Shown one piece after another: positions 1,119 to 32,393 of a stretch of DNA of 42,194 nt (the stretch's first letter is position 1; every line of letters begins with the position of its first letter). The notes under the pieces are model-generated. The model searched no databases. It worked only from the letters and a program-made list of their open reading frames with translations, and was not told the origin of the DNA. The DNA is from an uncultured Roseburia sp. (GTDB taxonomy: Bacteria; Bacillota; Clostridia; Lachnospirales; Lachnospiraceae), in the NCBI GenBank assembly GCA_947088345.1, contig CAMUGE010000027.1, positions 1 to 42,194 on the forward strand, in the 5' to 3' direction. The translations under genes were made by a program, and so were the position numbers.

Positions 1119-1529
1119 TATAGTTCAACACCAAAGACAGACGCAGGTATCCGTAAGATTCCTATGGGGAAAGAGACACGTCAGGCACTACAGGAAATTA
1201 AGCAGTATCACATAATAATGGGATTTTTTGCACAACAGAAATGGATGGGTATACAGATTTTGTATTTATGAATCGCTTTGGACGGGTGATTTTGCAACAG
1301 GATTTAGAACGGGTATTAGAGCGCATGAATGATGCATATAATGATGCAAAGCTTCACGGCGCAAAAATGAAAAATAGAGAACCACTTATTCTGCCTCATT
1401 TTACCTGCCATAGTCTGCGCCATATATTTTAGTGCAGGATTTTGTGAGAATGAGAGTAATCTGAAAGTAATCCAGTCAGTGATGGGACACGTTGATGCTA
1501 TCCACAAAGCCTTTAAAATCAACACTTAA
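1119..1529 (+). pseudogene. Tyrosine recombinase (phage/ICE integrase) C-terminal remnant with two frameshifts
   Basis: Translation in pieces gives the catalytic half of a tyrosine recombinase. Frame 3 from 1119 gives STPKTDAGIRKIPMGKETRQAL. Frame 2 from about 1241 gives MDGYTDFVFMNRFGRV and CHSLRHIF, the HxLRH box, stopping at TAG 1430-1432. Frame 3 again from 1431 gives SAGFCENESNLKVIQSVMGH, ending at TAA 1527-1529. The first change is near 1230-1241; the second is one extra base in the T-run at 1427-1430. The N-terminal domains are gone and the final segment lacks the nucleophilic tyrosine motif, so this cannot be active. It lies immediately beside the 3' end of a tRNA-Thr gene, a common integration site. 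Confidence 0.82.
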
Positions 1530-1532
1530 GAA

Positions 1533-1605
1533 AGCTGCTGACGGGAATCGGACCCGTGACCTCCGCACTACCAATGCGACGCTCTACCGACTGAGCCACA
1601 GCAGC
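1533..1605 (-). tRNA. tRNA-Thr (anticodon GGT)
   Basis: The reverse complement folds as a full cloverleaf: a 7-bp acceptor stem GCTGCTG/CAGCAGC, D-arm with GGCTCAGTCGGTAGAGC, a 7-nt anticodon loop TTGGTAG giving anticodon GGT, and a T-arm containing GGTCCGATTCC. Position 1533 supplies the discriminator base, and CCA is not encoded. The 3' end is 3 nt from the integrase remnant stop codon, which fits integration at the tRNA 3' end. Confidence 0.96.
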
Positions 1606-1650
1606 TTAACAGAATAGAAAATGAATAGATCATTTTCTCTGACTTGTTCT

Positions 1651-1679
1651 ATTCTACTATAAGGAGTGAATTTTGTCAA
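1651..1679 (-). promoter_or_regulatory. Promoter of tRNA-Thr
   Basis: On the minus strand TTGACA (1679-1674) is separated by 17 bp from TAGAAT (1656-1651), a near-perfect vegetative promoter. The short transcribed leader can form a perfect hairpin (GAAAATGA at 1617-1624 with TCATTTTC at 1630-1637) before the mature tRNA. Confidence 0.8.
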
Positions 1680-1691
1680 GAAAAATGATTT

Positions 1692-1747
1692 TCAATTGTT
1701 AAAAATCAATTGTTAAAATTGCATTTCGAGTCCAAATTATTTATAAT
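1692..1747 (+). promoter_or_regulatory. Promoter of the ABC exporter with tandem direct repeats abutting the -35
   Basis: TTGCAT (1719-1724), a 17-bp spacer and a perfect TATAAT (1742-1747) form the promoter. Two identical copies of TCAATTGTTAAAA (1692-1704 and 1706-1718, period 14) end exactly at the -35. A weak -35 with direct repeats beside it is the usual arrangement for a response-regulator-activated promoter; the regulator is inferred, not seen. The leader to the ATG at 2002 is about 250 nt. It contains only a possible 17-codon ORF (1761-1814) and no recognisable exported-peptide precursor. Confidence 0.62.
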
Positions 1748-2001
1748 AACGAAAGCAGGCAAATGGAGGTGATGGAAAAGCTGCCGGCGTTTTACATTAA
1801 CGTTACACGCAATTGACAAGGATATACGCGGCCAGAGCAGAGTACATGATTGTGTGCTGGATTACTTTCATAGACGATTTTGCCATACTGGACGCACACC
1901 GTTTTGGGAAATCGAAGAAAATACGGAAATTATCGCGCTTTGAGGCATGTATACCCGTTTCAATTGAGTGTATTGGGAACAATTAAAGGAGGAGAGGGAA
2001 A

Positions 2002-3912
2002 ATGTTATATTTGTCAGGTGTATATGCCGACAGGAACAGAAGAAAATATGGTCTTGCCAGCAACTTTATTTACAATATGAAAGCAGCGAAAGAATGGGAC
2101 AAAAAGCTGTTCTATTCTCAGGTGCTTTTTTTCGTGCCAAATGTAGCGGCATCCTTTTTAGGTACGCTGCTGCCGGCAAGGCTTGTTTTGGGGCTTGAGA
2201 CACATGCGCCCGTCGGCCGGATTCTGCTTGAAATGGCGATGATTGCATTTGTAATGTGGATTTGCAATACGGTTTCGGGCGGAATGGACAAATACTGCAG
2301 ATTTCAGGGAAAGCAGCTGTCACTTTACTATATGAAAAAATATTTTCATAAAATTATGGATGTCGATTATGAGATGCTTGAAGACGAGGGGTACCGTCAG
2401 GTAGAGAGCAATGCATGGTCTGTCGCGCGCTACGGCAGAGGCGTATCGGAAGCCGTCATGGCATTTCCATGGTTTGCGGCCGGATTGTGCGGCGTTTTGT
2501 TTTATGGTATTTTGATTGCAAGAGAGAGTATCCTGTTGATGCTGACCGTGATGGCAACGCTTGGCGCAAGCCTGTTCCTTTTGTCTGTCGTGCGAAAAAA
2601 ACACGCGCAGTATTTTGGCAAAATTCAGGAGTATTCGAGAAAAGAATCCTATATTACGGCGCAGGCGACAGAAGCGGCAGCAGGCAAGGATATTCGAATT
2701 TATCGTATGATGGACTGGTTTTTAAAGAAATATGACGAGTCGCTGCAGGAAATTGACCATATTTTTGCGGTCATACATAACTGGTATCTGTTACGGGGGA
2801 TTTCCAGCGCCGTATTGGAAGTGTTTCGGGACGGACTGGCGTTTGGGCTTTTGGTCTGGTTTTTGGCCACCGGGAAGATGAGCGCATCCGAATTTGTATT
2901 CTTTATTGGTCTTGTCAGCGGTTTTTCCCTCTACTTTGAGGATATGCTGCGCAAAATTATGCGGTTTAATAATATGAGCACATCTATCAGCTACATGCGG
3001 GAATTTTTAGAGACAGAGGACAGATGGAACCGCGGGGAAGGGATTGGCGAACAAAAACTGACGGAAATCAGAAAGTCGCCGGTAAAACTGGAACTGCGTC
3101 ATGTTTCGTTCACCTATCCAAACAATGAGAATCCCACGCTCTCCGATATTAATCTGGTGATACGGCCGGGTGAAAAGCTTGCGATAGTCGGTTTAAACGG
3201 AGCGGGTAAGACTACGCTGGTTAAGCTGATCTGCGGATTTTATCAGCCAACGGAGGGGGAAATTCTGTTAAATGATATCCCGATCAGCCGGTTTGACAGA
3301 GATGAATACTATAGTCTGATCACAATACTATTTCAGGATTATACACTGCTTCCGATTACACTGGACGAAAACATTACAGGGGAGCAAAAAAATCAGATCG
3401 ATCAGCCGCGGCTGAAAAGGGCGTTGGAACTGTCCGGTTTTTCGGAGGTTTATGATAATCTTCCGAAGAAAGGGGAATCGCTTTTGATCCGTGAGTTAAA
3501 TGATAAATCTGTGGATTTTTCGGGCGGAGAAAAACAGAAGATGTTATTTGCCAGAGCATTGTATAAGCAGGCGCCGCTTGTGATTCTGGACGAACCGACA
3601 GCAGCGCTTGACCCGATCGCGGAAAACGAACTGTATATGCGTTATGGGGAAGCGATGACGGGCAGAACATCGCTTTATATCTCGCACCGTCTGTCCAGTA
3701 CGCGTTTCTGTGACAGGATATTGCTGCTGGAACATGGGAAAATCATAGAGGAGGGCACGCATGAAAGTTTGATTGCCGGTAATACGCGCTACGCGTATCT
3801 GTTTGAGATTCAAAGTCAGTATTACAGAGAACAGGATAAAAGGAAAGCGCGCAGCCAGGTAATGGACGATGTGTTTGAGCATTTGGAGGAGGGAGGCGTT
3901 TTCAGTGAATAG
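2002..3912 (+). CDS. ABC exporter half-transporter (permease-ATPase), subunit 1
   Basis: This 636-residue protein fuses an N-terminal six-helix ABC exporter membrane domain (about residues 30-330) to a C-terminal ATPase. Walker A GLNGAGKTT lies near 397, the signature FSGGEKQK near 506, Walker B LVILDEPTAALD near 527-538, and the H-loop ISHRL near 560. The ATG follows a strong AAAGGAGGAG site. The next gene overlaps its last codons, so the two products probably form a heterodimeric exporter in the cytoplasmic membrane. Both ATPases keep their catalytic glutamate after Walker B. No peptide precursor, maturation enzyme or immunity gene is beside the pair, so the substrate (peptide, drug or lipid) cannot be named. 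The direct-repeat promoter suggests inducible expression. Confidence 0.9.
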   Translation: MLYLSGVYADRNRRKYGLASNFIYNMKAAKEWDKKLFYSQVLFFVPNVAASFLGTLLPARLVLGLETHAPVGRILLEMAMIAFVMWICNTVSGGMDKYCRFQGKQLSLYYMKKYFHKIMDVDYEMLEDEGYRQVESNAWSVARYGRGVSEAVMAFPWFAAGLCGVLFYGILIARESILLMLTVMATLGASLFLLSVVRKKHAQYFGKIQEYSRKESYITAQATEAAAGKDIRIYRMMDWFLKKYDESLQEIDHIFAVIHNWYLLRGISSAVLEVFRDGLAFGLLVWFLATGKMSASEFVFFIGLVSGFSLYFEDMLRKIMRFNNMSTSISYMREFLETEDRWNRGEGIGEQKLTEIRKSPVKLELRHVSFTYPNNENPTLSDINLVIRPGEKLAIVGLNGAGKTTLVKLICGFYQPTEGEILLNDIPISRFDRDEYYSLITILFQDYTLLPITLDENITGEQKNQIDQPRLKRALELSGFSEVYDNLPKKGESLLIRELNDKSVDFSGGEKQKMLFARALYKQAPLVILDEPTAALDPIAENELYMRYGEAMTGRTSLYISHRLSSTRFCDRILLLEHGKIIEEGTHESLIAGNTRYAYLFEIQSQYYREQDKRKARSQVMDDVFEHLEEGGVFSE

Positions 3913-29826: not shown

Positions 29827-29867
29827 AGGAAATGCACAGAATCCGCAAACCGGAGAGCGGCGGCAGG

Positions 29868-29898
29868 CCGGATGCAGAAATGTGTCCGGTATTTTTTT
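29868..29898 (+). terminator. Rho-independent terminator after the two-component system
   Basis: CCGGATGCA/TGTGTCCGG stem (two G-U pairs, AGAA-type loop) followed by TATTTTTTT. It isolates the toxin-antitoxin pair downstream. Confidence 0.75.
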
Positions 29899-29905
29899 GG
29901 GGAAC

Positions 29906-29934
29906 TTGACAAATAGCGATCGAAATCATATACT
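29906..29934 (+). promoter_or_regulatory. Promoter of the toxin-antitoxin pair
   Basis: TTGACA (29906-29911), 17 bp, TATACT (29929-29934), directly after the terminator. Confidence 0.85.
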
Positions 29935-29939
29935 GACTG

Positions 29940-29972
29940 AAATGATGGGAAAATAAAAAAATTCTATCATTT
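29940..29972 (+). promoter_or_regulatory. Inverted repeat, candidate autorepression operator
   Basis: AAATGAT (29940-29946) and ATCATTT (29966-29972) are 7-bp inverted arms with a 19-nt spacer, at the predicted transcription start and before the ribosome site. TA antitoxins with HTH domains usually bind such sites; binding here is inferred. Confidence 0.45.
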
Positions 29973-29992
29973 TGCGAAAGATGGAGGACTGG

Positions 29993-30379
29993 TTGGAGAA
30001 AAGCATAAAAGAGATCGAAGACTATCTGGCCGGGGTCAAAGCCGCAGTGAAAAGAGGACGCTGGCAGATTGAGAGAAACAAAAAACGGCAGGCGAATCTC
30101 GCGCTGTTTCGGGAGTATGTCATTGACGAGAGGAGATGCAGGCAGATTATTCTGGAGCTTTCGGCATATGATTTTAGCAGTATATTGCAGAACGAGCATG
30201 CGGGGTATGAACAGGAACAGTTATATGTGTTTGGGACAGAGGTCAGCCTGCTGCAGCGATTTGGGGAGAGAATGGACATAGTGCCGTTATACATTAAATT
30301 AAACAGGTTGGAAGAGCCGTTTGTGATTGTTGTTTCTTTTCACAGGCAGGCTCGCGTATTGAAATATGCATTTCGTTAG
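29993..30379 (+). CDS. MqsR-like mRNA interferase toxin (probable)
   Basis: A 128-residue basic protein if started at TTG 29993, five nt after GGAGG; ATG 29981 upstream has no ribosome site and would add four residues. After a helical, lysine-rich N-terminus (KRGRWQIERNKKRQ), the C-terminal 80 residues follow the MqsR pattern: CRQIILELSAYDF, ELYVFG-like QLYVFGTEV, PLYIKLNRL and VIVVSFH. MqsR toxins have a RelE/YoeB-like fold and cut mRNA. It is the first gene of a tight pair with a zinc-finger antitoxin. The TTG start suggests weaker translation than the antitoxin. Family assignment rests on pattern recognition; another RelE-fold family is possible. Confidence 0.68.
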   Translation: MEKSIKEIEDYLAGVKAAVKRGRWQIERNKKRQANLALFREYVIDERRCRQIILELSAYDFSSILQNEHAGYEQEQLYVFGTEVSLLQRFGERMDIVPLYIKLNRLEEPFVIVVSFHRQARVLKYAFR

Positions 30380-30390
30380 GGAGGACGGGT

Positions 30391-31404
30391 ATGCCGCAGA
30401 CCGGGCAGACAGATTTTTGCAGTAATTGCAGAAAACAGACAGAATACGAACTAAGAAAAGAAGCGGAGAAAGAAACGATACGGGACAGATTGTACGAATT
30501 TACATATACAAAGGCGTATTGCAGGGAGTGCGGGGAGGAGATGGGCCCGTTGGGCCTTATCGACTATAACAGCAGAGAGCGGGACATTCAGTACCGCAGG
30601 GCGGAGCAGATTATTACAGTAGAAGAGATTCAAAAGCTGATGCAGTTATATCATATAGGGAAAGCGCCGCTTTCCCTGGCTCTCGGATTTGGGGAGGTGA
30701 CTGTAGCCAGATATATGGAGGGACAAATGCCGTCTAAGGCCTATTCTGATCTGATGAAAGAGGCTCTTTCAAACCCCTGCTGTATGGAACGTCTGCTGGA
30801 CGAAAATCGCGCAAAAGTTGGAGAAGCCGCCTATAAAAAAGCGCGCAGGGCGGCGGCGGACTTAAAAAGCCTGTTTCAGGTTTCAGATCGAATGCTTATG
30901 GTAATAGCGCGAATTTTTGAACAGATGCAGGAGGTTACGCCGCTTGTATTGCAGAAAATGCTTTACTATATCCAGGGTATCTACAGCGCGGTATATCAGA
31001 GGCCGCTGTTTGAAGAGAACTGTGTTGCATGGCAGCATGGACCGGTATATGAAAAGGTTTATACGCTGTTTCGCGATTTTAAATACAACCCGATTGACGA
31101 TGACCGTTTTGTTCTGTTCGAGGGAAGAGAGAAATATCTTGCCGACGACGAGAGACAGATTGTAGATCTGGTGGCTGAGACATTTGGAAGTTACGGGGGA
31201 AAAGTATTAGAAGCAATTACACATACGGAGCGTCCGTGGCAGGAGGCGAGAAAAGGATATGGGGCGGACGATCCGGCCAGAGTTGTGATACCCAAAGAGG
31301 AGATTGCCGCTTATTTTCGGGAAGTGTCTAAGGCTTTTGATATCCGGACAAAAGAGGGGTTGAGAAACTATATTCAATTCAGGCTGGCTTATGCTTACGG
31401 CTAA
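30391..31404 (+). CDS. Composite antitoxin: CxxC zinc finger + HTH + SocA/Panacea domain
   Basis: A 337-residue protein 11 nt after the toxin, with GGGAGG before its ATG. Domain order: an MqsA/YgiT-type zinc finger with C10-x2-C13 and C44-x2-C47-G; an XRE-like HTH at about 73-125 (ITVEEIQKLMQLYHIGKAPL, seen as LALGFGEVTVARYMEG); a linker; and a SocA/Panacea domain (formerly DUF4065) at about 177-300, with LVLQKMLYYIQGIY, CVAWQHGPVY and ITHTERPW. Known roles: the zinc finger of MqsA neutralises MqsR, the HTH represses the operon, and Panacea domains neutralise many unrelated toxins. Having two potential neutralising modules in one chain is unusual. Function as antitoxin is inferred. Confidence 0.83.
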   Translation: MPQTGQTDFCSNCRKQTEYELRKEAEKETIRDRLYEFTYTKAYCRECGEEMGPLGLIDYNSRERDIQYRRAEQIITVEEIQKLMQLYHIGKAPLSLALGFGEVTVARYMEGQMPSKAYSDLMKEALSNPCCMERLLDENRAKVGEAAYKKARRAAADLKSLFQVSDRMLMVIARIFEQMQEVTPLVLQKMLYYIQGIYSAVYQRPLFEENCVAWQHGPVYEKVYTLFRDFKYNPIDDDRFVLFEGREKYLADDERQIVDLVAETFGSYGGKVLEAITHTERPWQEARKGYGADDPARVVIPKEEIAAYFREVSKAFDIRTKEGLRNYIQFRLAYAYG

Positions 31405-31421: not shown

Positions 31422-32393
31422 ATGAAAAAACACAGTAGAAAAATGATGCTTCCGCTGGTGTTTTGCCTTTTATTTGGCGCATGCGGCGGAAAGCAGGAGG
31501 AAGCAGGAAGCAATTCGTCGGACATTGCGGAAGTCCATATACAGGATACCTCGTCGCGGGAGAACTCATCCGATGCAGAATCAGACTCTTTTGACCGCAT
31601 GTCTGCACCGTCAGCTGATGCGGCGCCGGATTACTCTGGCGAGCCATATATTATTCTTGATGACAATATGCCTGATTTTGCAGAAGAAGACAGGACATTG
31701 GAAGCGTTTGAATATTACAGTGAACTTGACAGCCTTGGCCGGTGCCAGACGGCCTACGCCAATATCTGCCGGGAATTGATGCCGACGGAGGAGCGGCAGG
31801 CAATCGGGATGGTCAAACCGTCCGGCTGGCAGACGAAAAAATATGAGTTTGTGGACGGAAAGTATCTTTATAACAGATGTCACCTGATCGGTTACCAGCT
31901 GGCCGCAGAAAATGCAAATGAGAAAAATCTGATCACGGGTACGCGTTATATGAATGTAGACGGAATGCTGCCCTTTGAAAATCAGGTCGCTGATTATGTG
32001 AAAGAAACAGACGGCCATGTGCTCTATCGCGTGACGCCGGTCTTCCTGGGAGATAACCTGCTGGCGTCCGGCGTTGAGATGGAGGCATTTTCTGTCGAGG
32101 ATGAGGGAGAGGAAATCTGTTTTCATGTCTATGTCTATAATGTCCAGCCCGGAGTTGAAATCGACTACGCCACCGGCGAGAGCCGTCCGGCGAAAGAAGG
32201 GGCAAACGAAAGCGCTGCTCACAGCGATTTGAGCGAAGCTGTCTATATCTTAAATACAAATACAAAAAAATTTCATCTGCCGTCTTGCGACAGCGCGGAT
32301 GAGATAAAATCGGAAAATCGTGCGTCCTATACCGGAAATCGCAGCGAGCTGACAGAACAGGGCTACAACCCGTGTAAGCGCTGCAAACCATAA
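31422..32393 (+). CDS. DNA/RNA non-specific endonuclease lipoprotein with C-terminal cysteine motif
   Basis: A 323-residue lipoprotein: signal peptide with LFGAC (Cys21), a Ser/Asp-rich spacer, then an EndA/NucA-type beta-beta-alpha-metal nuclease (about 75-235) with LYNRCHLIGYQLAAENAN, where the catalytic His is near 154, then GTRYMNVDGMLPFEN. The Arg-Gly-His form of the motif is Arg-Cys-His here, as in other Firmicutes members. The C-terminal 50 residues (YILNTNTKKFHLPSC ... CKRC) match an Ada-like metal-binding module. It likely degrades extracellular DNA or takes part in DNA entry. It begins 17 nt after the antitoxin and may be read from the same promoter. Confidence 0.88.
   Translation: MKKHSRKMMLPLVFCLLFGACGGKQEEAGSNSSDIAEVHIQDTSSRENSSDAESDSFDRMSAPSADAAPDYSGEPYIILDDNMPDFAEEDRTLEAFEYYSELDSLGRCQTAYANICRELMPTEERQAIGMVKPSGWQTKKYEFVDGKYLYNRCHLIGYQLAAENANEKNLITGTRYMNVDGMLPFENQVADYVKETDGHVLYRVTPVFLGDNLLASGVEMEAFSVEDEGEEICFHVYVYNVQPGVEIDYATGESRPAKEGANESAAHSDLSEAVYILNTNTKKFHLPSCDSADEIKSENRASYTGNRSELTEQGYNPCKRCKP

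Follow-up and report, generated by a model that had tools for sequence, protein, structure and literature searches.

The window, the whole 42,194-nt stretch analysed here, is contig 27 of a 3.05-Mb draft genome that is 90.5% complete, and carries a small two-gene unit whose second product combines a zinc finger, a helix-turn-helix (HTH) and a SocA/Panacea domain. We asked which of these domains holds the toxin in check and what is left for the others. The locus is real and well conserved, and it is a new member, with a divergent active site, of a kind already described and experimentally dissected. As regards the zinc finger, the puzzle of which domain neutralises has been answered in print.

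Layout and promoter of the locus

Direct reading of the window reveals a hairpin, a promoter, two genes with an 11-nt gap, two CxxC pairs, an HTH and a Panacea domain, all on the plus strand. A query with the antitoxin matches once in the host genome. The strong promoter TTGACA-N17-TATACT (29906-29934) agrees with 11 of the 12 consensus positions, and a ribosome-binding site GGAGG (29983-29987) stands 5 nt before the TTG at 29993, from which the toxin gene (29993-30379) encodes 128 amino acids (aa) of the MqsR superfamily. The reading frame is open from TTG 29972 as well, giving a longer version of 135 aa; the nearby GGAGG and agreement with the start of homologues make TTG 29993 the likelier start. 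The gap (30380-30390) holds another GGAGG (30380-30384) and leads to the ATG of the antitoxin gene (30391-31404, 337 aa), a PanA/MqsA composite. It consists of a zinc-binding domain (ZBD; 30391-30606, residues 1-72, with C10, C13, C44 and C47), an HTH (30607-30774, residues 73-128, with boundaries drawn in the present analysis) and a SocA/Panacea domain (30949-31242, residues 187-284). Thus the promoter, the small basic protein, the 11-nt gap and the pairs C10xxC13 and C44xxC47 of the original prediction were all found as described. The terminator that it also listed corresponds to a terminator-like hairpin with a T tail (29867-29890) between the upstream response-regulator gene and the toxin-antitoxin unit, a feature that is weak on its own, 1 being found where shuffled sequences give a mean of 1.0.

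Counting the window, 46 of 56 toxin upstreams have a promoter-like pair (a -35-like box plus a -10-like box of at least 4/6), whereas 50 Markov-resampled sets give 3.8 on average and never more than 8. With a -10 threshold of 3/6 the count is 50 of 56, against 8.5 in resampled sequence; the scan took the best of spacers 16-18, and the spacer was 17 in 47 of the 50 found at 3/6. By eye, half-sites TGATAG/CTATCA recur in loci of the window's clade, arranged as TGATAGGA-TATTGACAAAA-TCCTATCA about the -35 box and as TGATAG...CTATCA after the -10 box, and a second clade has a different upstream repeat, of ATCAATTGATGCA type. Counted without mismatch, the half-sites come to 1.04 per locus on average where 0.07 would be expected, and 27 of 50 loci lie above expectation, for a motif chosen only after the sequences had been seen. 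In the window the first operator of the relatives, flanking the -35 box, is degenerate, and the second is kept as a predicted inverted repeat AAATGAT...ATCATTT (29940-29972, 7-nt arms 19 nt apart) that holds the family half-sites TGATrG/CTATCA; allowing one mismatch, the window counts 2 half-sites against 1.5 expected, which is not above chance. The co-conservation of the half-sites, together with the joint loss of HTH and promoter in two relatives described below, suggests that an HTH dimer would repress the promoter of the pair at the TGATAG/CTATCA inverted repeats.

Identity of the toxin and the antitoxin

The toxin is a basic protein (pI 9.27). Searched alone it gives no useful match in Pfam, NCBIfam or PDB sequences, and it matches phrog_34059 at 1.3e-9. 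With E values up to 1 accepted, 14 of the 23 members of the toxin alignment, the window toxin not among them, match Pfam MqsR_toxin, the best at 3.4e-4. Bridging by profiles reaches further. Loci with related antitoxins supplied a sister set of 11 toxins, which aligns with the window toxin family at 1.6e-19 (99.2%); 7 of these 11 match MqsR_toxin (best 2.1e-21). Against E. coli MqsR the sister set scores 7.3e-7, whereas the window family, compared directly with the E. coli protein, gives a weak match (0.012, probability 3.6%). We therefore rejected the idea that the small protein is unrelated to MqsR, a relationship that single-sequence and PDB profile searches miss and profile bridging does not. 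From these alignments the protein is assigned to the MqsR superfamily, with a membership visible via intermediate homologues only, and the MqsR-like toxin proposed at the outset is upheld by the homologue matches and by the bridge.

Across all 68 non-redundant pairs, five toxin residues never vary: F80, Y100, K102, S115 and H117. Profile alignments place Y100 as the equivalent of E. coli Tyr81 and H117 opposite Lys96. In E. coli MqsR both Lys56 and Tyr81 are essential for cleavage, alanine mutants being inactive according to the cited part of that study (PMC9636575). The Lys56 position, not conserved in the window family, is S63 in the window toxin and mostly H, E, Y or G among relatives, and since the Lys56 equivalent is absent we file the toxin as a divergent member of the superfamily and not as a canonical MqsR. 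Presumably it is an RNase that cleaves mRNA, and Y100, K102, S115 and H117 would mark the active site. The two named plasmid records inspected label the toxin-family gene simply as a hypothetical protein.

The antitoxin matches SocA_Panacea at 4.1e-23 (82.9 bits against a curated cut-off of 25.7). Ahead of that domain it carries a four-Cys zinc finger and then an HTH, as in MqsA: the MqsA-family model CxxCG_CxxCG_HTH (TIGR03830) matches residues 10-135 at 9.8e-14, its 51.2 bits lying below the curated cut-off of 61.8, and the HTH gives a weak match to MqsA 3gn5 (E 0.059). Its cysteines are at 10, 13, 44, 47, 130, 131 and 211; C10, C13, C44 and C47 are invariant in 26 of 26 aligned antitoxins, and the four finger cysteines also in all 68 non-redundant pairs, which were chosen for having a ZBD match. 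The protein matches phrog_10390 at 6.7e-55. Together the Panacea and MqsA-family matches and the invariant cysteines bear out the predicted composite. Membership of the type VI SocA family was rejected (NF047745, 54 bits against a 190-bit cut-off), and neither protein matches any PADLOC anti-phage defence family.

The ZBD-HTH-Panacea order is shared with Bacillus fungorum MqsR_D2:PanA, whose MqsR-like toxin has, in the cited portion of that report, an essential Tyr with an equivalent kept in the window (Ernits et al. 2023, PMC10440598). Likenesses to E. coli MqsRA are the toxin gene in first place, a toxin (an RNase in E. coli and presumably here) whose Tyr81 has its counterpart in the window toxin, and a four-Cys ZBD plus HTH in the antitoxin; the E. 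coli promoter has palindromes, as described in part of the MqsRA literature (PMC2791442), and the window has a predicted inverted repeat. E. coli MqsA, with its 131 aa, has no room for a Panacea domain, unlike the window antitoxin. That domain is common to type VI SocA/SocB and other PanAT pairs; the window pair differs from SocA/SocB in its MqsR-like partner and in the dedicated zinc finger of its antitoxin, which leaves no reason to assume a proteolysis-promoting type VI action. The families phrog_34059 and phrog_10390 are phage-borne, whereas the window copy is chromosomal.

Genomic site, HTH-less relatives and distribution

In the window and in genomes G056, G467 and G1472 the pair occupies one and the same site, flanked by a response-regulator gene and a gene for an RluA-type pseudouridine synthase. 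G292, from the window's genus, shows the empty site: only 16 nt separate its two flanking genes, and there is no toxin-antitoxin pair. At another locus of this genus (L233, G624:C1:420500-432500) about 8.7 kb, a kinase-like gene included, separates regulator from RluA, and the site may either tolerate or attract other arrangements. In the window itself a gene at 31422-32393, 17 nt downstream of the antitoxin, encodes a DNA/RNA non-specific endonuclease domain (PF13930, 5.7e-24); its product has, judged by eye, a lipoprotein-like signal, and its C-terminus matches an Ada-type metal-binding stretch at 1.7e-4, below the cut-off for that match. We rejected this nuclease as a third gene of the unit; it is absent between regulator and RluA in G056, G467, G1472 and G292.

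G467 and G1472 are two species of one genus other than the window's, and their pairs (L236, 1128-2346, and L237, reverse strand, respectively) lack the HTH. Their antitoxins (281 and 250 aa) keep the ZBD and the Panacea domain, and the antitoxin genes end within the start of RluA. The toxins start 11 and 12 nt after the stop codon of the regulator, a spacing from which we infer that the pair is co-transcribed with the response regulator, and the 170 nt before each toxin hold no promoter-like pair by the criterion of the family scan. G1473 and G1484, of the same genus as G467 and G1472, have both HTH and promoter. Between G467 and G1472, Nei-Gojobori estimates, given without a significance test, are dN 0.094 and dS 0.98 for the toxin, 0.136 and 0.69 for the ZBD, and 0.133 and 1.10 for the Panacea domain. 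With dN far below dS, toxin, ZBD and Panacea look constrained in these two species, and since HTH and promoter are both missing there, the parts for autoregulation appear to have gone together. The junctions in the two species are very similar, which points to probably one shared loss, one event and not two.

One reading of these forms, which we put forward tentatively and rate as rather unlikely, is that in this one genus the pair was captured by the two-component operon next to it, losing promoter, operator and HTH and maintaining toxin, ZBD and Panacea, with the Panacea domain as trigger receptor. If so, Panacea would gate the toxin held by the zinc finger without any part in transcriptional autoregulation, and the range of natural variants, whether full-length, HTH-less or cysteine-free, would make its role directly testable. 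The HTH-less relatives argue for Panacea doing something besides autoregulation, and they are the part of this locus family worth specialist attention, as natural variants of this kind make it possible to tell apart what ZBD, HTH and Panacea each contribute with no guesswork in engineering. Among the matches listed in searches of open-licence PMC articles with general terms, neither an HTH-less ZBD-Panacea antitoxin nor capture by a two-component operon appeared, a weak indication of their absence from print.

Across genomes, the toxin was found in 24 of 299 members of the window's family and in 4 of 40 of its genus, the window included in both. The antitoxin profile, in counts that include partial matches and the window, recovers 52 of 397 family genomes at 1e-40, 44 of 392 order genomes at 1e-20 and, at 1e-25, 27 of 391 class and 39 of 398 phylum genomes. 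On viral contigs all 21 full antitoxins, several of them near-identical copies, have the toxin beside them, and none of the 7 Panacea-only proteins does (plus-strand frames); among plasmid records, 3 cover at least 80% of the antitoxin. The subfamily is thus spread through its phylum and on phage-like contigs. The patchy distribution, the viral-contig copies, the plasmid records and the empty site in G292 would suit an addiction or stability module on mobile DNA, in which Panacea has no sensing role. We regard this as a possibility, though less likely than its negation: the window pair sits between ordinary chromosomal genes, with 0 integrases among the four flanking proteins scanned, and the dN of Panacea stays far below dS after the HTH is lost.

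Pairing with the toxin and the neutralising domain

In B. fungorum PanA, the truncation results in the cited portion of the report show that the toxin is neutralised by ZBD and by ZBD-HTH but by neither Panacea nor HTH-Panacea; the hypothesis preferred by the authors is that Panacea acts as a sensor (PMC10440598). The suggestion that one antitoxin holds two neutralising modules is thus not supported by this relative. MqsR-like domains account for 90 of 1268 putative Panacea-linked toxins (Kurata et al. 2022), and the same study, in the part cited here, describes one PanA-associated MqsR that stayed toxic in spite of its PanA (PMC8832971).

We compared these results with the pairing of toxin and antitoxin domains in nature. 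Of the first 28 loci, all but L025, which ends at a contig edge, have a toxin match upstream of the antitoxin (27 loci); two entries in this set are the window itself and L028 is apparently the same contig as L008. The toxins of L019 and L023 are truncated (98 and 76 aa). A conserved two-gene locus with a small toxin gene is therefore present, as for PanA antitoxins, and the two genes proved to be neighbours across relatives, as had been expected of a genuine pair. For the main count, loci were fetched with the antitoxin profile only, yielding 127 frames that are antitoxin-like frames and not independent loci (L072 gives two). Eleven were dropped: eight at contig edges (L154, L046, L100, L122, L121, L071, L073 and one frame of L072), while the other three, two from L161 and one from L090, were fragments or second frames.

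A toxin or remnant lies upstream of 71 of 78 frames with ZBD and Panacea and of 5 of 9 with ZBD and without Panacea by our profile, against none of the 10 HTH+Panacea frames without ZBD and none of the 13 Panacea-only frames. With ZBD present the count is 76 of 87, against 0 of 23 with ZBD absent (Fisher 1e-15, uncorrected for relatedness). The remnants include weak matches in L124, L125 and L170 (E about 0.01), without which the counts are 68/78 and 73/87; the toxin profile misses remote MqsR forms, and two of the ZBD-less rows, L144 and L160, are short or N-terminally cut. Among frames counted as lacking Panacea, L063 and L065, both with toxin, do carry it by Pfam, and L067 has no Panacea remnant after the antitoxin stop. 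Three MqsA-type antitoxins without a Pfam Panacea match, L067, L168 and L169, still have a weak toxin-profile match. The main frame count agrees with the truncation results: toxin presence tracks the ZBD, not Panacea.

Six frames in which the profile does not match the finger were kept apart from this count (L059-L062, L064 and L159). L159 has both CxxC pairs and a toxin; the other five antitoxins retain only the first CxxC, and with a weak match in L060 (0.0024) the set holds 2 toxins in 6. Upstream of L059, L060 and L062 a protein of 146-166 aa looks MqsR-like by eye.

We consider it probable, on balance, that the window carries a chromosomal type II pair of the PanAT/MqsRA kind, with an RNase toxin, a neutralising ZBD, a repressing HTH and a Panacea domain that likely receives a cue. 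By analogy with the B. fungorum relative, the antitoxin zinc finger would bind and neutralise the toxin. Panacea would then not be the main neutraliser; following the hypothesis in the cited part of the B. fungorum report (PMC10440598), it most likely receives an activating cue, perhaps from phage, and relays it to the zinc-finger/toxin part.

That ZBD and Panacea both contact and neutralise the toxin in the window's subfamily seems to us distinctly unlikely, although several observations lean that way. Panacea can neutralise directly in other PanAT pairs, as given in parts of two studies (PMC8832971, PMC10440598). Among the loci examined, no intact antitoxin of the window's toxin subfamily lacks Panacea, so this domain seems not to be dispensable in nature. 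Toxin distances correlate with Panacea at least as well as with the ZBD: the partial distance correlation is 0.57 for toxin-Panacea and 0.36 for toxin-ZBD (65 pairs, not length-matched), with ZBD higher in 6.8% of bootstraps, and in 40-column windows the peak in Panacea (0.39) exceeds that in the ZBD (0.25; 68 pairs). Mutual information between toxin and antitoxin in the 68 pairs shows no enrichment for the ZBD. Co-variation thus failed to favour the ZBD and pointed, if anywhere, to Panacea, in signals that are weak, drawn from too few pairs and confounded by shared descent. Two phage loci, looked at after the main count and outside it, also run against the ZBD-toxin pattern. In L217 (bIL311, 2157-3385) and L218 (2044-3268), Panacea antitoxins without any CxxC in their first 80 residues adjoin proteins of 98-99 aa that look MqsR-like, the one in L218 by a profile match at 2.5e-4 and the one in L217 by eye. 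The N-terminal 70 residues of these antitoxins look, by eye, like a cysteine-free finger, so that zinc has apparently been lost while the pair persists. These two loci slightly lowered our confidence in the main reading and slightly raised it for dual neutralisation. Against dual neutralisation stand the failure of the B. fungorum Panacea fragments and the 0 of 23 toxin matches upstream of ZBD-less Panacea frames, with 0 of 7 on viral contigs.

Less probable still is an MqsR fold without catalysis, acting purely as co-repressor or partner of the antitoxin: the unconserved position of the catalytic Lys56 (PMC9636575) would allow it, yet Y100, K102, S115 and H117 are invariant, toxin dN is far below dS in G467 and G1472 where no own promoter was found to co-repress, and the B. 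fungorum relative is toxic in dependence on its Tyr, as the cited part of its report states (PMC10440598).

Some Panacea proteins appear apart from any such pair. In L055, L056, L058 and L162-L166, ZBD-less HTH-Panacea proteins of 256-275 aa have no toxin-profile match upstream, and in L055 and L056 the protein stands beside a permease-like gene (by eye); possibly Panacea serves here in regulators outside toxin-antitoxin pairs.

Seven ZBD+Panacea antitoxins have no toxin-profile match upstream. L031 and L157 have no frame of at least 60 aa close upstream; L156 has a transporter-like frame at 297 nt, L087 and L091 have unrelated-looking frames at 77 and 117 nt, and L118 has a 143-aa frame at 89 nt. 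The proposal that the antitoxin protects against other toxins as well found no support here, as only one of the seven, L040, has a close possible partner. In L040 a full ZBD-HTH-Panacea antitoxin (1501-2499, reverse strand) lies 27 nt after a gene for a YhcG/DUF1016 PDDEXK nuclease, with no MqsR, and this nuclease is either a chance neighbour or a swapped partner.
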